Positions 4,021 through 58,826 of a stretch of 64,000 bases of DNA are shown piece by piece; the first letter of the stretch is position 1, and every line of letters begins with the position of its first letter. A program made the position numbers and the translations under genes. The DNA is from a virus: the IMG/VR virus record IMGVR_UViG_3300042314_000177, positions 1-64,000 of that record; one strand, given 5' to 3'. The notes beneath the pieces were generated by a model. It did not search any database and had not been told where the DNA came from. It worked only from the letters and a program-made list of their open reading frames with translations.

Positions 4021-4942
4021 CAGACGGAGCGCCCGTCTGACCTCCTTTTGGCTTTCTCCAGCTATCTGGGCTTCCAGTTACTGGCCCACCTACATATTCT
4101 TGCCCGTTTACAATATCGCCTATTTTTAAGTCTGCTGGAATAGCTTGAACATTACTGTAAACTTTTGGCTTTGCAGCAGGTGCGGATTCACCACTGGATG
4201 GTGTTCCGTAAAGTTCTAAATACAAAGAAAGTGGGCCGTTAAATACTGTATTATTGGGAGTCATAACCCCAGAGACAAACGTATCGCCCTGCGTGATAGC
4301 AATGTTACTTAATATCTCTTGGCCCCGCTTGCTGAATGGCTCAATTCCAGCCGCACGCAGTTTATTAGCAGCATCACCAAAGCCAGTCATTTCATCGGCA
4401 GCTTTAGGGTTGACTGCACGAACTTGAAAATCAATGAAGCCTTGGGCTGCCCGTGGGTCTACTCCAGGATTTGAGATTGCTTTTGAAAGGTCTCTAAATT
4501 GCTGTTCAACTTCAGTATATCCGCTATTTTTTGCCGCATCAGCACGTAGGTTTAATTCATTAACTGCTGATTGAATATCAACAACGCCATCTTTGTTAGT
4601 CCCAAGACGGTTGTATACCTTACGCGCCGTTTCTAAAAAAAAGTTTTTGCGGCCTTCATCTAGGACATCATAGGCAGATTTTACAGCATTCACATAATCA
4701 GGGCCAAGCTCACGCATAGCTTCATTGCGAGATTCAACGGTTGCTCCAGGGCCAAGCTTTTCTTTAAATATTCTTACTTTTTGCGCTTCTGCATCTATCT
4801 TGCGCTGAATTTCTGCAAGCTCCGCTTCAGCACGGAGGCGTTGAGCATCAGCCTGCTGTTGCTGCTGGCCTAATTGGACGGCTTTAAAAAACGTTTCTCC
4901 AGGCGATGGCGTTTTAAGTGTATAATCATAAGGCTGTACCAT
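4007..4942 (-). CDS. Internal virion protein (P22 gp20 position)
   Basis: The product is 311 residues. The N-terminal 60 residues are Gln/Ala/Glu-rich and predicted coiled coil (GQQQQQADAQRLRAEAELAE). The rest is helical, with a Gly/Pro-rich tail. It lies between the gp7-like gene and the peptidase, where P22 encodes ejection protein gp20. The counterpart at 38565-39320 (251 residues) has the same kind of coiled-coil N-terminus but little other similarity. Role inferred from order and composition. Confidence 0.5.
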   Translation of the reverse strand: MVQPYDYTLKTPSPGETFFKAVQLGQQQQQADAQRLRAEAELAEIQRKIDAEAQKVRIFKEKLGPGATVESRNEAMRELGPDYVNAVKSAYDVLDEGRKNFFLETARKVYNRLGTNKDGVVDIQSAVNELNLRADAAKNSGYTEVEQQFRDLSKAISNPGVDPRAAQGFIDFQVRAVNPKAADEMTGFGDAANKLRAAGIEPFSKRGQEILSNIAITQGDTFVSGVMTPNNTVFNGPLSLYLELYGTPSSGESAPAAKPKVYSNVQAIPADLKIGDIVNGQEYVGGPVTGSPDSWRKPKGGQTGAPSGGFR

Positions 4943-6843: not shown

Positions 6844-7485
6844 TTAATACAGCAAGTTGTTAAACGAGGCGGCTTGCATAATAACCCAATTTGTGCCGTT
6901 TGACACTAGTGTTGCCCAATTACCAGACACATTAGTCAAAATAGCAGTTCCAGCCGATCCACCGCCTTGCGGGATTACATCACTAGATGCTGAGACAAGC
7001 GTTTGATCTTGGTTGTTTTGAAATGTTAGATAACGCCCAGGATATGTTGCAGCCGATGGCAAGGTTACAGTGCAAGTCGATCCTGACTTGTTATTGATTA
7101 TCCATGTTTCATTTGGTGCAACCGTGAAATCCGCTGTCTTAGTAACAACTACAGATGTCGGTATTGATGCCAATATTGCTAGTGAATCAAGCGGCGGTGG
7201 CGTCAATGCAAGGTCTTCAATCTGCGATTCAATAACCGCAAGTTGGCTTGCACTTGCTGGGCTTGGCTCTTTGTTAAGAGCTTCGGCCAAGGCTGCAATC
7301 TCAGCAAGAGCGTCATTAGCCGCTTGACCTGAATTGCCAGCAGCGAACTCAACACCTGGGATGATATCGTTCGTGTTTGAATCAACAGTCGCAAACAGCC
7401 TTTCGAACTGCTTTATCTGCTCATGATCCTGTAAGAAGGACGCAAGCTGATCGCGTGTTAAGCTTAGCCTTGTCCGCGTTGCCAT
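6844..7485 (-). CDS. Minor tail protein at tail-needle (gp26) position
   Basis: The product is 213 residues. The N-terminal half is helical and partly coiled coil (RDQLASFLQDHEQIKQFERLF, then an Ala/Glu-rich heptad region). The C-terminal half is a beta-domain rich in Ser, Thr, Gly and Asn. It follows the gp10 homologue, as gene 26 does in P22, and a helical stalk with a beta tip fits a needle. The C-terminal domain is better conserved with 42333-42980 than the middle. Needle identity is inferred. Confidence 0.5.
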   Translation of the reverse strand: MATRTRLSLTRDQLASFLQDHEQIKQFERLFATVDSNTNDIIPGVEFAAGNSGQAANDALAEIAALAEALNKEPSPASASQLAVIESQIEDLALTPPPLDSLAILASIPTSVVVTKTADFTVAPNETWIINNKSGSTCTVTLPSAATYPGRYLTFQNNQDQTLVSASSDVIPQGGGSAGTAILTNVSGNWATLVSNGTNWVIMQAASFNNLLY

Positions 7486-8894
7486 TAGTAAGCTAACGGC
7501 TCAATCGCCGCCTCTAATCTAGCAAACGACATATGCGCGTCTGATGTGCCTTGGAATCTCTGTATGCGCCAGTTACGCATCCATCCCTGTTGGAACCAAA
7601 CCAAACGCTTTGCACGCTGTCCTGTCTTGCCAGCATTGATAAACTTCTGCTGGCTGTAGGTTTGACCATCAGTGGAATAGCTGGTGTTGATTGTTGGCTC
7701 TACGCCATACGCTGCTGAACCAGTTAGGCCAACCAGTTCTAGGTTCTGAATGATTGCGCCACGACCTTCGTTGTAAACAATCGTTGTGCCAAACTCCCAA
7801 CGCACCTTCTGCCCGTAATGGCTTGAGATGTTGCTAACCATATAGCCTACAGATGTATTTGTTGGGTCGCCTACCAGCCATTTGTCATAGCAATACACAA
7901 GGTTCTGTGCGCGGTACTTTGAAAGACCTACCAAGCTGCTTGTCAGGACAAACCACACTGGCTGGCCTAAGTCTTGCGTAGCGGCAGCGTCAAATACAAT
8001 CGTGCGATCGGGCAAGTGAATATAAAGATGCTCGTGCGCCTTATCGTTACGCGCCTCTAGCTTGACTGTAGACAGTTGCGCTTCGGTAAACTGAAGCAGG
8101 ATTTGATCTATCTCTTGCGTGCTAATCTTATTCGTTTTGGCATTGCCGCCAAGATAAACGCCTGGAGCTTCATTGAATCCGCTGCCAAGGAAAGCGATGC
8201 TCTCTAGATAAACGCAGCAAGCGTGTGTGCCGACAACGCCCTTTTCAATCTGAGCGCCATCAATGCGCTGGAACGGGAACAGGTCGCCGCCTACGTTGTC
8301 ATATACTTCGATGGTGTTTCTGTTCAACGCGTATATCTCATTGCGTAGCTTGAGCAGTGCGACAACGGGATCAGGGTCAATTTCGGACGAACCATACTTC
8401 AGGGGATTAACCTGCGTTGGGTCACTTAGTTCCGTGACAATAAGAAACTCGCCATCAGTGGTCATGAAGTAGCCATCTACCCAAACCACATCCAGAACGA
8501 TGCCAAGGTCAGGGTCGGTTACTTGAACAAGGCCAAGGCTAGGCGACCAGTAAAAAAGGTCTTCGTTTGAAGCGATAGCCAAGCGATCGAAGCTGTAGTC
8601 CATCGTTACTAGTTGACCGTTGTTCCCAACGTCACCCAGAATCGTTATTGCACCTGTGCTGGACACTATAACGAGCTTAGAACCCATCACGCGATAGCAG
8701 ACGCCATTCCAGTTGATGCCGCCACGATCAACGCCTGGGCCAGTGCCGTTAGCCACCAAGCCATCAGCAGGACGCAGGAAGCCTTCGCTAATCCCATTAC
8801 TCTTTGGCACTGGAATCATATTGACAGGATAGGACGTGCGAAAGTCCGGCCCATTGTCCGTATAGATGCCGCTAAGGATTGGAATCTGCGTCAT
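7485..8894 (-). CDS. Packaged DNA stabilisation / tail hub protein, P22 gp10-like
   Basis: The product is 469 residues, close to P22 gp10 (472). The start MTQIPILSGIYTDNGPDFRT and the repeated beta-propeller-like blades (DGYFMTTDGEFLIVTEL, HEHLYIHLPDRTIVFDA) fit this family. It closes the portal channel after packaging and connects to the tail needle. It directly follows the 44-residue gene and is highly conserved with 42980-44392. Confidence 0.85.
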   Translation of the reverse strand: MTQIPILSGIYTDNGPDFRTSYPVNMIPVPKSNGISEGFLRPADGLVANGTGPGVDRGGINWNGVCYRVMGSKLVIVSSTGAITILGDVGNNGQLVTMDYSFDRLAIASNEDLFYWSPSLGLVQVTDPDLGIVLDVVWVDGYFMTTDGEFLIVTELSDPTQVNPLKYGSSEIDPDPVVALLKLRNEIYALNRNTIEVYDNVGGDLFPFQRIDGAQIEKGVVGTHACCVYLESIAFLGSGFNEAPGVYLGGNAKTNKISTQEIDQILLQFTEAQLSTVKLEARNDKAHEHLYIHLPDRTIVFDAAATQDLGQPVWFVLTSSLVGLSKYRAQNLVYCYDKWLVGDPTNTSVGYMVSNISSHYGQKVRWEFGTTIVYNEGRGAIIQNLELVGLTGSAAYGVEPTINTSYSTDGQTYSQQKFINAGKTGQRAKRLVWFQQGWMRNWRIQRFQGTSDAHMSFARLEAAIEPLAY

Positions 8895-21960: not shown

Positions 21961-22444
21961 GCTCCTCTGCCGTAACGTATTCCTGGGGCGGAGCGTAATC
22001 GCGGTAGTGAATCATCAAAAGATGCTTGGCGCGATTGATCCTGCGTCTGCGATCATAGCCCTCATTCTGAACCACCGAATCTATCTCCGCTGGCGTTGGC
22101 ATGAACTTGCAAGTCCGCAGCAGCTTTAGAAACGCGCTGCGTAAATCGACCAATGGATAGATTCGCAGTGTCAGCCAATACAGTTCTAACCGCTCCGCTT
22201 CTTCCTCCACACTGCGCTTCTGGCTGGCTGTGGCTAGTGAAAGCTTGGCAATCATAACCTCGACCTGTTCGCGATCAGGCATTGGTGGCCTTGGTGCGTC
22301 CACAAACTGCTGAAGGGTCTCCGCAGACTTAGGCCCAATCGTCGGTAGGTCGCTCCCCATCAGCAGCTCGTCGAGCTTGGCTGGCAATGACTGCTCTGAC
22401 CATTGAATTGGTTGGTTCTGCTGCGTGTTTGCTATTTCCTGCAT
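21920..22444 (-). CDS. Replication partner protein (helicase-loader position)
   Basis: The product is up to 174 residues, helical, with TASQKRSVEEEAERLELYWL and a basic segment (YDRRRRINRAKHLLMIHYRD). It overlaps the initiator gene by 116 bp in another frame, and the overlap is conserved in unit B. By analogy with lambda O-P order it may be a helicase loader or primosome adaptor, but no loader motif is visible. A start at an internal ATG (22360) is possible. Confidence 0.55.
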   Translation of the reverse strand: MQEIANTQQNQPIQWSEQSLPAKLDELLMGSDLPTIGPKSAETLQQFVDAPRPPMPDREQVEVMIAKLSLATASQKRSVEEEAERLELYWLTLRIYPLVDLRSAFLKLLRTCKFMPTPAEIDSVVQNEGYDRRRRINRAKHLLMIHYRDYAPPQEYVTAEELAELRRNLQIGQD

Positions 22445-23087
22445 TGGTCGCGCCTTTCGGTTCGTATATATCCAGCCAGCCGTTGATTGTCGAACGGTCT
22501 AGCAATTCGTTGATGTCATGTCCTACTGAGTGCAAGGCTTCCAGTTTGGTAAGCGCCCTTGCTTTCGCTCTATCGGTTAATGGGCGCTTGCGTTGCTTCC
22601 GCATCTCCACCCAACCGTTCCAAGCATCTATAGGCAACCATAGGGGATACCCCTCTATAATAACTGGTTTATGGTTATTGGTTATTGGTTTATGGTTAGT
22701 GGTTAAGGTTACGACTGGGTTCTCACTGGCAACCGACTCGGAACCCACTGGGTTTTCCATGGCCTGTTTTATCGCAGTTTTCGGTCGCCCACCGCGCTTA
22801 CCGTTCTCTCTATTGCGTTCAGCCTGACGATGATATTCCTCAATATCAGCATCGCATCGAGGATGCCTCCATCCTTCTTCAGTGCAAATAAACATATCAT
22901 TGAGCAAAACTTCAATCACACCCACATCTATTCGGATGCGTCTGGCAACCCACTGGGTTTCGAGTGGGATAGGTGATTCAGTTTCATAATACATATCTAG
23001 CAGCCGACGATAAGCCAAGTCCTCGTCGTTGGTTAGATGGCGTGTCGATCGAGCGTAATCGCCAATGTTGAATTTATAATAATGCAT
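22329..23087 (-). CDS. Replication initiator (lambda O-like) with DUF1376 N-terminal domain
   Basis: The product is 252 residues. The first 80 resemble DUF1376/YdaU (HYYKFNIGDYARSTRHLTND..., DLAYRRLLDMYYETE). A low-complexity linker follows, encoded by heptamer iterons, then a C-terminal domain (GWVEMRKQRKRPLTDRAKAR) nearly identical to that of unit B. Unit B has a different N-terminal winged-helix domain and different iterons. This is the expected design of an initiator with the origin inside its gene. Initiator role is inferred. Confidence 0.7.
   Translation of the reverse strand: MHYYKFNIGDYARSTRHLTNDEDLAYRRLLDMYYETESPIPLETQWVARRIRIDVGVIEVLLNDMFICTEEGWRHPRCDADIEEYHRQAERNRENGKRGGRPKTAIKQAMENPVGSESVASENPVVTLTTNHKPITNNHKPVIIEGYPLWLPIDAWNGWVEMRKQRKRPLTDRAKARALTKLEALHSVGHDINELLDRSTINGWLDIYEPKGATNAGNSKHAAEPTNSMVRAVIASQARRAADGERPTDDWA
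22665..22706. repeat. Iterons: six tandem heptamers (two 21-bp repeats), putative origin
   Basis: Two tandem 21-bp copies (19 of 21 identical) are each built of three 7-mers: TGGTTTA, TGGTTAT, TGGTTAT, then TGGTTTA, TGGTTAG, TGGTTAA, followed by GGTTACG. They lie in the linker-coding part of the initiator gene, like the lambda origin inside gene O. AT-rich DNA lies on the downstream side. Confidence 0.6.
22742..22755. repeat. Near-palindrome AACCCACTGGGTTT, copy 1
   Basis: The 14-mer AACCCACTGGGTTT occurs here and at 22947-22960, and a half site (ACTGGGTT) stands at 22714. All three lie inside the DUF1376-type initiator gene and are absent from the unit B initiator. They may be extra protein-binding sites of this origin version. 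Confidence 0.35.
22947..22960. repeat. Near-palindrome AACCCACTGGGTTT, copy 2
   Basis: Exact second copy of the 14-mer at 22742-22755, 205 bp away inside the same gene. Its recurrence in coding DNA in different codon contexts suggests a DNA-level function. Confidence 0.35.
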
Positions 23088-23089
23088 GA

Positions 23090-23155
23090 TTAATTTACTC
23101 GCCTTTTAATGGCGGTAATATCTTGCGTGATGGTTCTGTGGCGTGTATTACTCAT
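23090..23155 (-). CDS. Leader peptide MSNTRHRTITQD... (21 aa) before initiator
   Basis: A 21-residue frame starts 10 bases after AGGAGG and ends two bases before the initiator ATG. The segment NTRHRTITQD is identical in unit B (57720-57770), where the frame overlaps the initiator start (ATGA). Conservation of the peptide and its coupling to the initiator suggest translational control. Confidence 0.5.
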   Translation of the reverse strand: MSNTRHRTITQDITAIKRRVN

Positions 23156-23188
23156 TACAGCGATGCCTCCTCTTGCTAGGCGTTGTTA

Positions 23189-23230
23189 GAGCGGGTCGAG
23201 TGCTTTTTGCTTTTTCAGCACTCCCCGCTC
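23189..23230. repeat. 14-bp interrupted inverted repeat upstream of initiator
   Basis: GAGCGGG-TC-GAGTGCT pairs with AGCACTC-CCCGCTC across a 12-base T-rich loop. It starts 3 bases after the -10 box of the leftward promoter, so it spans the predicted start site. It could be an operator or an RNA hairpin. Unit B keeps it (57801-57841) with one change that is G-U tolerated on the plus strand. Confidence 0.55.
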
Positions 23231-23233
23231 GCT

Positions 23234-23263
23234 CTTACATAACTCAAAACGCACATTTGTAAA
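23234..23263 (-). promoter_or_regulatory. Leftward promoter for the initiator operon
   Basis: The minus strand reads TTTACA-N18-TGTAAG; unit B has TTTATA-N18-TATAAG at the same place. It would transcribe the leader peptide and the initiator genes. It lies back to back with the rightward promoter at 23281. Confidence 0.5.
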
Positions 23264-23280: not shown

Positions 23281-23310
23281 TTGACAACCAATACGCTGAT
23301 AGCGTATTCT
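23281..23310 (+). promoter_or_regulatory. Rightward promoter TTGACA-N18-TATTCT
   Basis: A consensus -35 and a good -10 stand in intergenic DNA facing a terminator only 35 bases beyond. Unit B has TTGACC-N17-TATTAT at the same position. No protein gene lies between promoter and terminator, so it implies a short RNA. Confidence 0.55.
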
Positions 23311-23316
23311 GTGCGG

Positions 23317-23372
23317 ATTGGTACCTCCTTACCGAAACGAACTTGGGTGGCTTCGGTCACCCATTTTTATTT
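23317..23372 (+). ncRNA. Predicted small RNA with anti-Shine-Dalgarno loop
   Basis: The predicted transcript is about 55 nt. Stem 1 is TTGGTA/TACCGA (23318-23323 with 23330-23335) around the loop CCTCCT. Stem 2 is the UUCG terminator. The loop matches the 16S rRNA anti-Shine-Dalgarno core, so the RNA could pair with ribosome binding sites. Unit B (57927-57981) keeps the stem through a base-pair change and presents CTCCT. It also overlaps the 3-prime end of the DUF1064 gene in antisense. Confidence 0.45.
23345..23370 (+). terminator. Rho-independent terminator with UUCG loop (rightward)
   Basis: GGGTGGC-TTCG-GTCACCC forms a 7-bp stem (one G-U pair) with a C(UUCG)G tetraloop and is followed by ATTTTTATTT on the plus strand. 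On the minus strand the loop is CGAA, one pair is lost and no T-tract follows, so it is directional. The sequence is identical in unit B (57954-57979). Confidence 0.7.
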
Positions 23373-23711
23373 GGTCTCACGAAGATCGTGATGTGGGAAT
23401 AGCGCCTTAAAGACAGCGCGGCGCAAAGGCCAATCTCTGACAACGACTCCCTTCACATCTTCAGTCACCAGCATACCGTTTTCGACATATTCGAAATCAG
23501 ATTTATAGCCAACGCGCCTGCCATTGGAATGTTTAAGCTGGCGTCCATTGATGACGAACCAGTATTGCGGGTGGATCATCAGGTCACTTATCTCTCCAGC
23601 AGCTTCCAATGCGTGCAGTTCATTGCAGCGCATAGCCTCACGTTTGCTGTCATGTGTATGACCAGCCCTGCACTGCGATTTGACAGCACGATACTTTCCG
23701 AAACGTTTCAT
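23367..23711 (-). CDS. DUF1064 protein, probable Holliday-junction-type nuclease
   Basis: The product is 114 residues. MKRFGKYRAVKSQC, HDSKREAMRCNELHALE and YKSDFEYVENGMLVTEDVKG fit DUF1064. The E...D...E/K pattern (ExxRxxEL, SDFxY, VxEDxKG) resembles a PD-(D/E)XK nuclease core. Likely acts on recombination or replication intermediates. Start overlaps the XRE gene stop (ATGA). Homologue at 57976-58320. Confidence 0.75.
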   Translation of the reverse strand: MKRFGKYRAVKSQCRAGHTHDSKREAMRCNELHALEAAGEISDLMIHPQYWFVINGRQLKHSNGRRVGYKSDFEYVENGMLVTEDVKGVVVRDWPLRRAVFKALFPHHDLRETK

Positions 23712-23914
23712 GCGTTAAGTTTCTGCTCTATTAGGCGATCGAGTGCGTCATTGGCTGCAATCCATGCGCCTAGCTGTGGTTCAGTGCGTCCACTTTTCCA
23801 ATTCGACAGCGTGACGCGGGTGATGCCAGCCTCAATTGCTATCTTGCAAGCCCTGATTTTATGCGTCCTGGCATAGCTAAAAAAGTTCGCAATTTCGTTT
23901 TGTACCTGGTTCAT
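23708..23914 (-). CDS. Cro/CI-like XRE repressor (68 aa)
   Basis: The product is 68 residues. EAGITRVTLSNWKSGRTEPQ is a clear helix-turn-helix recognition segment. It is the first leftward gene, divergent from the ERF operon, the usual place for an early regulator. ATG 23914 was chosen over TTG 23920. Homologue at 58323-58529 keeps the recognition helix (GITRVTLSNWK). Confidence 0.75.
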   Translation of the reverse strand: MNQVQNEIANFFSYARTHKIRACKIAIEAGITRVTLSNWKSGRTEPQLGAWIAANDALDRLIEQKLNA

Positions 23915-24005
23915 ATTCAACTTTCTTTGGGTTGTGGATAAAAAGAGCTTTTAATCTTCTGAAAATTAGTTACAAGGGGTTTGGCAAATAAAAGGAGATA
24001 CCGCA
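23915..24005. promoter_or_regulatory. Divergent control region with a DnaA box
   Basis: This 91-bp AT-rich spacer separates the leftward and rightward early operons. It contains TGTGGATAA (23933-23941), the exact complement of a consensus DnaA box. A possible leftward promoter TTGTAA-N16-TAAAAG is also present. AAAGGAG precedes the ERF start. Both early operons are probably controlled here by the XRE protein. Confidence 0.45.
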
Positions 24006-24566
24006 ATGCCAGTACATAAAAAGATTAACGAAGCGCGGATTGCTTTCCACGCATTACCTCTAAAAAAGTCCGGCCATAATACGTTTGCTGGATATAAATA
24101 TTTTGAGCTTTCAGACTTTGTGATTCCAGCCCTTCGCATTTTTAACGATGTCGGATTGTGCGCGATCATAAGCTTTTCAGAATCCACAGCGTCGATGCAC
24201 ATTGTCGATGTCGAGGATGGAACTCAGGTGATTATTCACAGCCCAATGGGATCAGCCAATCTTAAAGGCTGTCACGAGATACAGAACATTGGTGCTTGTG
24301 AGACTTACTCCACCCGCTATCTCTGGACAGCAGCCCTTTGCATTGTCGAGCATGACGCACTGGATGCTACCACAGGCAAGATCGAACCAGCACCACGCGA
24401 AAAGTTTATCAGCGATAAGCAGTTTGCTGAATTGCAAGCCTTGGTAGACGAAACCAAAACAGACATGGCTCTGCTCTGCAAGCATTACAAAATCAGCGCA
24501 CTCAAGGAATTGCAGGAAATCCGCTTCGATGCGGTTAAGGCTGCATTAGAAAAGAAGCTGAAATGA
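24006..24566 (+). CDS. erf: ERF-family single-strand annealing protein
   Basis: The product is 186 residues. NTFAGYKYFELSDFVIPALR and CETYSTRYLWTAALCIVE match the ERF superfamily (P22 Erf). It anneals complementary strands in RecA-independent recombination and concatemer formation, usually with the exonuclease encoded next. First gene of the rightward operon, overlapping yqaJ by 4 bp. Homologue at 58838-59407 with a diverged C-terminus. Confidence 0.88.
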   Translation: MPVHKKINEARIAFHALPLKKSGHNTFAGYKYFELSDFVIPALRIFNDVGLCAIISFSESTASMHIVDVEDGTQVIIHSPMGSANLKGCHEIQNIGACETYSTRYLWTAALCIVEHDALDATTGKIEPAPREKFISDKQFAELQALVDETKTDMALLCKHYKISALKELQEIRFDAVKAALEKKLK

Positions 24567-56629: not shown

Positions 56630-57140
56630 TTTCCAGATTCCTTCTTAAATCTTCAAGCTCTAGGGCTGTGACATATTCTTGGGGCGGCTCATAATCACGA
56701 TAGTGGATCATCAAGAGATGCTTGGCGCGATTGATCTTGCGTCTGCGATCATAGCCTTCATTCTGAACAACCGAATCTATCTCCGCTGGTGTTGGCATAA
56801 ACTTGCACGTTCGCAGTAGCTTTAGAAACGCACTTCGAAGATCGACCAAGGGATAAATTCGCAACGTCAGCCAATATAGCTCCAGGCGCTCTGCTTCTTC
56901 TTCCTGACTGCGCTTCTGGCTGGCAGTGGCTAATGATAGCTTGGCGATCATGACCTCCACCTGTTCGCGCTCGGGCATTGGTGGTCTAGCGGCATCAACA
57001 AACTGTTGAAGGGTCTCAGCCGACTTAGGCCCAATCGTCGGTAGGTCGCTCCCCATCAGCAGCTCGTCTAGCTTGGCTGGCAATGACTGCTCTGACCATT
57101 GGGTTGGTTGGCTCTGCTGCGTGTTTGCTATTTCCTGCAT
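56610..57140 (-). CDS. Replication partner protein (unit B)
   Basis: The product is up to 176 residues and almost identical to 21920-22444 (PTIGPKSAETLQQFVDA shared). It overlaps the initiator by 116 bp. Role inferred from position after the initiator. Confidence 0.55.
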   Translation of the reverse strand: MQEIANTQQSQPTQWSEQSLPAKLDELLMGSDLPTIGPKSAETLQQFVDAARPPMPEREQVEVMIAKLSLATASQKRSQEEEAERLELYWLTLRIYPLVDLRSAFLKLLRTCKFMPTPAEIDSVVQNEGYDRRRKINRAKHLLMIHYRDYEPPQEYVTALELEDLRRNLEIGTAHK

Positions 57141-57723
57141 TGGTCGCGCCTTTCGGTTCGTATATATCCAGCCAGCCGTTGATTGTCGAACGATCTAGCA
57201 ATTCGTTTATGTCGTGTCCTGCCAAGTGCAGGGCTTCCAGCTTGGTGAACGCCCGTGCTTTTGCTCTATCGGTTAATGGGCGCTTGCGTTGCTTTCGCAT
57301 CTCCACCCAACCCTTCCAAGAATCAATCGGCAACCAAACTGGATACCCCTCTATTATATACTTGGTGGTTAATTGATGTATCTTTAATGTATTGGGTGCA
57401 TCTGGTGCAGGGGTCTCATGCATCTGGTGCACGGGTGGTATGTCTTTAGTGCACGGGTGCATTTGCTGCATGGGTATCTGAATCCAATACCTATTGCCCT
57501 TGCCGATCACTTCTTCACGGCGAATAAACTGCATTTCTTCCAGCGATCTAATTGCCAGTTGAACAGCCCGTTTTTTTAATGATGATTTTTTAGCTACTCG
57601 CTCAATTGAAGGCCAGCACAAACCTTCATCGTTTGCCCAATCTGCCAAAGACAGAAGGACAAGCTTTTGCGTAGATGATAGGTCTTCCCTATCCCATACT
57701 GCTGTCATTAATTTGATACTCAT
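57025..57723 (-). CDS. Replication initiator with winged-helix N-terminal domain (unit B)
   Basis: The product is 232 residues. The first 85 form a winged-helix domain of HTH_36 type (SSTQKLVLLSLADWANDEG, LKKRAVQLAIRSLEEMQFI). A Met/His/Pro-rich linker is encoded by 18-bp iterons. The C-terminal 110 residues match the unit A protein. Only the origin-binding end is exchanged. Confidence 0.72.
   Translation of the reverse strand: MSIKLMTAVWDREDLSSTQKLVLLSLADWANDEGLCWPSIERVAKKSSLKKRAVQLAIRSLEEMQFIRREEVIGKGNRYWIQIPMQQMHPCTKDIPPVHQMHETPAPDAPNTLKIHQLTTKYIIEGYPVWLPIDSWKGWVEMRKQRKRPLTDRAKARAFTKLEALHLAGHDINELLDRSTINGWLDIYEPKGATNAGNSKHAAEPTNPMVRAVIASQARRAADGERPTDDWA
57397..57475. repeat. Iterons: three 18-bp repeats, putative origin of unit B
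   Basis: TGCATCTGGTGCAGGGGT (57397-57414), TGCATCTGGTGCACGGGT (57419-57436) and TGCATTTGCTGCATGGGT (57458-57475), plus a partial GTGCACGGGT (57449-57458). Repeats 1 and 2 differ at one base and repeat 3 at three. They code for the linker of the initiator and bear no resemblance to the unit A heptamers. Confidence 0.65.
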
Positions 57724-57770
57724 GACGCAAAGTCTTGCGTGATGGTTCTGTGGCGTGTATTACACAACAT
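57720..57770 (-). CDS. Leader peptide MLCNTRHRTITQD... (16 aa), unit B
   Basis: A 16-residue frame follows AGGAAGG and overlaps the initiator start (ATGA). NTRHRTITQD is identical to unit A, after which both sequences change. Confidence 0.5.
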   Translation of the reverse strand: MLCNTRHRTITQDFAS

Positions 57771-57874: not shown

Positions 57875-57891
57875 AGCGAATTTATACATCA

Positions 57892-57920
57892 TTGACCAGC
57901 GCACAGTTTTTCCGTATTAT
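57892..57920 (+). promoter_or_regulatory. Rightward promoter TTGACC-N17-TATTAT
   Basis: It lies at the same place as the unit A promoter at 23281-23310, although most spacer bases differ. It faces the conserved UUCG terminator 34 bases beyond. Confidence 0.55.
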
Positions 57921-57926
57921 CCGCCG

Positions 57927-57981
57927 CTTGGTGCTCCTTGCCAAAACAACCTTGGGTGGCTTCGGTCACCCATTTTTATTT
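57927..57981 (+). ncRNA. Predicted small RNA with anti-Shine-Dalgarno loop (unit B)
   Basis: Stem 1 is TTGGTG/TGCCAA (57928-57933 with 57939-57944) around the loop CTCCT; two pairs are G-U. Stem 2 is the terminator GGGTGGC-TTCG-GTCACCC (57954-57971) with ATTTTTATTT. Length about 55 nt. Confidence 0.45.
57954..57979 (+). terminator. Rho-independent terminator with UUCG loop (unit B)
   Basis: Same sequence as 23345-23370. The T-tract overlaps the end of the DUF1064 gene on the other strand. Confidence 0.7.
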
Positions 57982-58529: not shown

Positions 58530-58619
58530 TTAACTTTTCTTTCGTTTTGCGATAAAAAACGCTTTTAATTCCCGTTCATGATGTTTACAAGGTATTTACA
58601 AAATAAAAAGGAAGCAACC
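58530..58619. promoter_or_regulatory. Divergent early control region (unit B)
   Basis: This 90-bp spacer contains two direct TTTACAA copies (TTTACAAGGTATTTACAAAA) near the rightward gene and a possible leftward promoter TTGTAA-N17-TAAAAG. The DnaA box of unit A is changed here (TTGCGATAA). The repeats are candidate operators for the XRE protein. Confidence 0.4.
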
Positions 58620-58826
58620 ATGCCGAAAGAAAAATGCACAGTTTGTGGTCACACCATGACCGACACATTTGAATGCTTGCCATGCGACTTTGTTGAGATG
58701 GCAATCAATGCTGGCGCTTGCCACGCAAACTATGGTGAACACCTAGCCGAGCTTATAGGTGACGTTATGACGATTCGGAATTGGTCAGCAGAACCGATCC
58801 GCTTTAAATATCCACGTTTTGCATAA
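58620..58826 (+). CDS. Small zinc-ribbon-like protein (68 aa), unit B only
   Basis: The product is 68 residues. CTVCGHTMTDTFECLPCDF gives two CxxC knuckles, and the rest is helical. GGAAG precedes the ATG. It is inserted before erf in unit B. Function unknown. Confidence 0.6.
   Translation: MPKEKCTVCGHTMTDTFECLPCDFVEMAINAGACHANYGEHLAELIGDVMTIRNWSAEPIRFKYPRFA

Follow-up and report, generated by a model that had tools for sequence, protein, structure and literature searches.

CopA of plasmid R1 is a hairpin RNA antisense to the leader of an initiator with a coupled leader peptide. In phages, OOP is an RNA made next to a replication initiator, encoded between cII and O in lambda (PMC3985674) and between c1 and orf48/gene 18 in P22. 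The OOP RNAs (lambda pO-oop-tO, P22 oop) are short, have their own sigma-70 promoter and intrinsic terminator, and lie opposite the early operon (PMC3985674, PMC13397905), directly upstream of the initiator gene. Other short phage RNAs, VpdS of VP882 (about 50 nt) and PreS of lambda, regulate mRNAs in trans (PMC12197685). Finally, the alphaproteobacterial cuckoo or alpha-r14 RNAs have three hairpins, each with CCUCCUCCC, and silencing by occlusion of the ribosome-binding site (RBS) was shown for the 123-nt NfeR1 (PMC10746234).

The window analyzed here is a stretch of 64,000 nt, positions 1 to 64,000 of the IMG/VR record IMGVR_UViG_3300042314_000177. The complete record (68,853 bases) contains two related, distinct phage genomes of ~34.5 kb placed head to tail, units A and B. 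Blocks common to both units are 73-95% identical, and related contigs measure about 34-38 kb, so that two phages were probably joined in assembly or occur as a tandem in nature. Since unit B is the second of two joined related genomes, its copy of the RNA described below comes from a related phage and is no paralogue.

The small RNA of this window resembles several of these systems and differs from each. Like OOP, it is short, has a sigma-70 promoter and an intrinsic terminator of its own, is opposite an early operon, and sits directly upstream of the initiator gene. However, OOP overlaps the 3' end of cII or c1, whereas the RNA studied here touches only the last bases of DUF1064, and an invariant anti-Shine-Dalgarno loop has not been reported for OOP. 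The window has no gene identified as CII-like, and our covariance model (R1) found nothing in lambda or P22 at E <= 5. By this test, the small RNA is not an OOP homologue, despite its identical position. The comparison with cuckoo RNAs made in the initial annotation is valid as a functional analogy, in that both have an anti-Shine-Dalgarno motif in hairpin loops with variable stems. Yet it is not a member of that family: the RNA is encoded by a phage, measures about 50 nt, and has one CUCCU hairpin instead of three with the cuckoo motif. VpdS and PreS are similarly short phage RNAs, with the trans regulation being a prediction in our case, but they occupy a different genomic position. As for CopA, the RNA is antisense upstream of an initiator with a coupled leader ORF, but CopA lies directly in the repA leader. 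In our phages, by contrast, the loop does not vary, and some 155 nt or more separate the antisense stretch from the downstream start of the leader ORF.

Anatomy and neighbourhood of the small-RNA gene

The leftward operon of unit A has, in this order, an HTH-like gene, DUF1064, the small-RNA gene on the opposite strand, a 21-aa leader ORF, the initiator and a helicase-loader-like gene. The divergent rightward operon starts with erf. Unit B keeps this arrangement, with a diverged RNA. The relevant genes are the following.

22329..23087 (-): replication initiator/primosomal protein of unit A, with a DUF1376 N-terminal domain and an O-like C-terminal part
23090..23155 (-): 21-aa leader ORF of unit A, MSNTRHRTITQDITAIKRRVN (MSNTRHRTITQD...), read from the sequence, ending 2 nt before the initiator start
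57720-57770 (-): equivalent 16-aa leader ORF of unit B (MLCNTRHRTITQDFAS), read from the sequence
23367..23711 (-): DUF1064 of unit A (domain match, PF06356), in the upstream part of the leftward operon that faces the RNA
23708..23914 (-): small HTH-like regulator that opens this operon, comparable to Cro in its position
24006..24566 (+): erf, ssDNA-annealing protein (PF04404, phrog_155), first gene of the divergent rightward operon and predicted target

The HTH-like regulator has no Pfam or PHROG match. The leader ORFs of both units end 2 nt before, or overlap, the initiator start codon, and the small RNA is antisense to the mRNA upstream of them. The leader ORF is conserved between units although the N-terminal domain of the initiator differs (DUF1376 in A vs HTH_36 in B). 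The initiators at 22329-23087 (-) and 57025-57723 (-), together with the one at 3893-4615 of the relative L090, have a common C-terminal part and at least three different N-terminal domains, differences that point to modular domain swapping. We also observed a long inverted repeat, GAGCGGGTCGAGTGC ... GCACTCCCCGCTCGCTC, at about 23188-23236, in the interval that separates the small-RNA promoter from the initiator leader, and likewise in unit B. It is kept even in relatives without the small RNA and is a possible origin or leader structure.

The small-RNA gene of unit A (23281-23371, +) lies antisense between DUF1064 and the initiator. It is composed of a sigma-70 promoter, a 5' hairpin and a UUCG terminator, and the interval from promoter to terminator is free of genes, just as first described. 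Its elements, and the copy in unit B, are listed here.

23281..23286 (+): -35 box TTGACA, with TTGAC kept in all 55 distinct relatives
23289..23308 (+): near-perfect palindrome AATACGCTGATAGCGTATT between -35 and -10, a possible operator, from the inverted self-match of the sequence
23305..23310 (+): -10 box TATTCT after an 18-nt spacer; TATnnn in 55 of 55, spacer of 17 or 18
23317..23371 (+): predicted small RNA of about 50-55 nt, its presumed start 7 nt after the -10 box
23318..23335 (+): 5' hairpin UUGGUA-CCUCCU-UACCGA, with the loop CUCCU invariant among relatives
23344..23370 (+): intrinsic terminator TGGGTGGC-TTCG-GTCACCCA plus U run; stem variants with compensatory changes in relatives
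57890..57980 (+): small-RNA copy of unit B (RNA 57925-57977), with TTGACC-17-TATTAT, loop CUCCU and the same terminator; model match of 71.6 bits

RNA polymerase would start just upstream of the 5' hairpin and stop at the UUCG terminator, and we infer from these signals a transcript of ~50-55 nt. The terminator has an 8-bp stem (23344-23363) followed by the U run, and its end overlaps the DUF1064 stop codon. Computation reproduced the fold proposed for this transcript, with its CCUCCU loop and terminator stem (-18.9 kcal/mol, z = -4.0). The covariance search suggested at the outset was run, and R1 matches both copies, with 78.8 bits in unit A (23315-23368). Unit B had been said to keep every element, which is correct for the promoter, the CUCCU loop and the terminator; its 5' hairpin is weaker than that of unit A, and the minimum-energy fold differs. 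In a scan of 10 kb, the small-RNA promoter of unit A is the top promoter-like site, with 10/12 consensus positions against 9/12 for the other seven. The 8 sites found do not exceed the 13.6 expected from shuffles, so the significance of the small-RNA gene comes from its conservation.

Conservation across uncultured phage relatives

The small RNA is present in 62 of the 67 distinct DUF1064 relatives found in IMG/VR: hairpin and terminator are adjacent in 61, displaced by an HNH gene in one, and absent in five. In the tree of presence and absence, the rows marked MINUS include several pattern misses (such as L188, L171, L200, L201 and L191), which do carry the RNA. An exact scan of IMG/VR for the terminator gave 30 contigs, every one with the same promoter, hairpin and terminator, and the covariance model found one copy per phage among the phages searched. 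The 55 distinct promoter and RNA sequences have TTGAC, TATnnn, a spacing of 17-18 and the loop CUCCU without exception, and the identity of the promoter spacer drops to 22% across the same set. Two further relatives, L090 and L092, keep hairpin and terminator with only a degenerate promoter.

Among 26 distinct hairpins, the invariant columns are T-G-G, C-T-C-C-T and one C in the 3' arm, and GGU and CUCC are separated by one to three bases of variable number and identity. In the 5' stem, 95% of the counted pairs are standard, with only one change on both sides. This stem is held mainly as sequence and its base-pair covariation is weak; hence, the A-U to G-U change noted in unit B is real, but stands within weak covariation. 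The terminator stem is nearly invariant in the set used for pair counts, with stem variants only in the long-loop class. Terminators come in short and long-loop forms, with differing yet complementary stems (TGGGTGGC/GTCACCCA, TGGGTGGTG/CACCACCCA, TAGGCGGCG/CGCCGCCTA), and a further complementary stem, CTGGGCAGTG...CACTGCCC, was read from the sequence. Several lineages (L113, L120, L131 and L114) have enlarged terminator loops, in which a unit like TTTGGATTGGGATTTCTCGGTCG has been added either singly or as two tandem copies.

The palindromes of the promoter spacer differ by lineage: AATACGCTGATAGCGTATT at 23289-23308 in unit A, GCATTGTACAATGC in L023, and a different palindrome or none at this position in other lineages. 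It is as if repressors of differing specificity acted on the small-RNA promoter. We found no convincing second copy of the palindrome near the erf/HTH control region in the window.

HNH genes lie between DUF1064 and the RNA in two contig pairs (L102/L118 and L116/L147), where the RNA is unchanged, which shows that its function does not depend on contact with DUF1064. These are two kinds of HNH endonuclease gene, both placed exactly between DUF1064 and the small-RNA terminator (L118, 7028-7474, -; L116, about 7074-7601, +). Loss of promoter and loop, which would have spoken against a small-RNA gene, was sought in the relatives and found only in one clade and a distant outgroup. Six phages with a zinc-finger-like first gene fall into this clade, and none of them has GGAG at the RBS of that gene; the outgroup L224 has no RNA, yet has GGAG at its first-gene RBS. 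Since the loss of the RNA and of GGAG is mainly that of one clade, it counts as about one event.

Searches beyond these relatives returned little. No Rfam family matches the small RNA at the gathering threshold, and the best sub-threshold matches of a permissive search, PhrS and SorY, reflect mainly terminator similarity. A DNA search of phage GenBank with the 861-base region gave no match, and matches to DUF1064 in phages and plasmids are all below 60% identity. Cellular genomes have no DUF1064 relative, and a scan of these genomes for the RNA pattern gave two matches lacking promoter and terminator, which we judged to be chance. Altogether, the conserved boxes, loop and terminator, the diverging spacer and the survival of HNH insertions argue that the element is a real small-RNA gene of this P22-like phage group. 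The anti-Shine-Dalgarno loop RNA suspected at first is thus genuine and conserved, with control of translation in trans as the reading that is best supported.

Predicted pairing with the first gene of the recombination operon

The predicted target is the first gene of the divergent rightward operon; A-type phages have erf in this place, and B-type phages have a small zinc-finger-like ORF. The sites in the window are as follows.

23985..24008 (+): erf RBS AAAAGGAGATACCGCAATG, predicted pairing site for GGUACCUCCUU
58606..58622 (+): RBS AAAAAGGAAGCAACCATG of the first gene of unit B, predicted pairing site for GGUGCUCCUU

The erf RBS is AAGGAGAUACC or a close variant, and B-type RBSs are AGGAGCAACC, AGGAAGCAACC or AGGAGCAGUC. 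Facing them, the pairing segment of the small RNA is GGUAYCUCCUU, GGUACUCCUU, GGUUCCUCCUU or GGUAUUCUCCUU in A-type phages and mostly GGUGCUCCUU in B-type phages. Two features expected of an RNA that occludes an RBS are present: a conserved and predicted single-stranded anti-Shine-Dalgarno segment (CUCCU in 26 hairpins and 55 loci) and extended complementarity to the RBS of a specific mRNA, that of erf, which reaches 11-12 contiguous pairs. RNA and erf RBS of the GGUAUCUCC lineage are perfectly complementary over 11-12 nt. The invariant positions (GGU and CUCCU) are those predicted to pair, and the variable ones fall at a mismatch or bulge.

We ranked the duplexes of each small RNA with the RBSs of its own phage, taking all predicted genes of the contig in the relatives. 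Where erf comes first, 14 of 17 combinations place its RBS at the top of 12-31 genes, and the others place it second or third; the first genes of B-type phages rank between 1 and 8. In the complete units of the window, erf is third of 55 genes in A and the first gene is fifth of 52 in B. The GGU part contributes to pairing beyond the Shine-Dalgarno seed, since scrambling it weakened the duplex in most cases, and few other RBSs (about 4%) have ACC a short way behind GGAG. GGAG itself is a common RBS (16 of 55 genes in unit A), GGU..ACC is also required for the hairpin, and the first genes of L003 and L011 pair poorly. Swapping RNAs and RBSs among relatives was not significantly worse (permutation p of 0.07 to 0.37), and this test thus gave no significant signal of coevolution between RNA and RBS across the relatives. 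A duplex scan of the whole window was rejected as a way of naming targets, being too permissive.

The RBSs of two other plus-strand genes (L005/L078 and L058/L140) have long matches to the small RNA of their own phage. Unrelated ORFs at 4852 (+) of L005 and 6637 (+) of L140 have a common leader, GAATAGGAGAATACCA(A)TG, which is the exact 11-nt complement of the phage's own RNA.

These observations suggest a mechanism in which the hairpin would present CUCCU in its loop and GGU in its 5' arm in vivo. GGU-N-CUCCUU would pair in trans with the RBS of the first gene, either erf (AAGGAGAUACC) or the zinc-finger-like ORF (AGGAGCAACC or AGGAAGCAACC), and would block its translation, such that recombination functions would be limited or timed. 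Other RBSs of the AAGGAG type, in the phage or the host, may be secondary targets. We thus tentatively regard the small RNA as a trans-acting repressor of whichever gene opens the divergent recombination operon, with a likelihood approaching an even chance. Among the mechanisms considered it is the best supported, with a confidence that is only moderate because there is no significant coevolution and the absence of the RNA is mostly that of one clade. The UUGG-(N)-ACCUCCUUA of unit A, which presumably resembles the 3' tail of 16S rRNA, may also act as a general decoy for Shine-Dalgarno sequences.

Alternative readings and the OOP position

The mechanisms proposed initially were translational regulation of host or phage mRNAs and an antisense brake on DUF1064 or the initiator. 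The best-supported target is the phage recombination-operon RBS, and the antisense brake is the main rival. In the latter, a loop-loop contact between CUCCU and AGGAG would act in cis on the leftward replication operon and lower the initiator or DUF1064, by analogy via RNase III or leader-peptide coupling, as for OOP on cII or CopA on tap-repA. By construction, the small RNA is a perfect complement of the leftward mRNA in the stretch from DUF1064 to the leader ORF and initiator. It sits where oop does in P22 and lambda, between a regulatory or accessory gene and the initiator and on the opposite strand. The initial annotation knew of no such RNA at this position in P22-like phages, but P22 oop is there. 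This location, and the leader ORF of 16-21 aa coupled to the initiator start in both units, as in antisense-controlled plasmids, make control in cis a real rival that could coexist with action in trans. However, a purely cis-antisense RNA needs no invariant loop, because any mutation alters RNA and target at once. CUCCU nevertheless stays fixed amid diverging surroundings, and this is the main argument that cis-antisense control is not the whole story. Moreover, the RNA barely overlaps coding sequence, has its start over 150 nt upstream of where the leader begins, and is unaltered where HNH insertions changed its neighbourhood. We therefore regard this explanation as unlikely, although it is the main rival.

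The invariant CUCCU loop would equally suit a general anti-Shine-Dalgarno regulator whose targets would mostly be host mRNAs, for instance one that reduces translation from strong AAGGAG sites of the host. Precedents exist both for phage RNAs acting on host mRNAs (VpdS/PreS, PMC12197685) and for anti-Shine-Dalgarno loops that silence mRNAs (PMC10746234). This reading does not account for the further conserved GGU, nor for the fit of GGU to the erf RBS, and we consider it improbable. Still less probable is that the promoter alone matters and the RNA is a by-product, with opposing transcription hindering leftward transcription or activating a nearby origin. Such an RNA-independent role was assigned to lambda pO (PMC3985674), and the small-RNA promoter adjoins the conserved inverted repeat and the initiator gene, but the conservation of the hairpin loop would have no explanation, and L090 and L092 keep hairpin and terminator despite their degenerate promoter. 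Lastly, we rejected as hardly tenable the idea that the conserved signal is an AGGAG RBS of the leftward strand: it lies about 9-10 nt before the ATG of a short leader ORF in L090 and L092, but a start codon at usable distance exists in only 4 of 24 distinct contexts and in neither unit A nor B, while promoter and U run both have plus-strand orientation, so that the constraint is most simply on the plus-strand RNA.

Few phage small RNAs have any comparative support, and the one described here is conserved in dozens of uncultured phages, with a clear anatomy and an explicit predicted target. It sits at the OOP position of lambda and P22, but is a different RNA, outside Rfam and with a conserved anti-Shine-Dalgarno loop. 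It bears on whether distant phages have filled the OOP position with unrelated RNAs that work differently, some as cis-antisense and others as anti-Shine-Dalgarno RNAs. A possible, if doubtful, reading is that the RNA at this position is a dedicated anti-Shine-Dalgarno switch acting in trans on the Erf operon. If true, the timing of replication and that of recombination would be linked by an RNA across the early control region of these phages.
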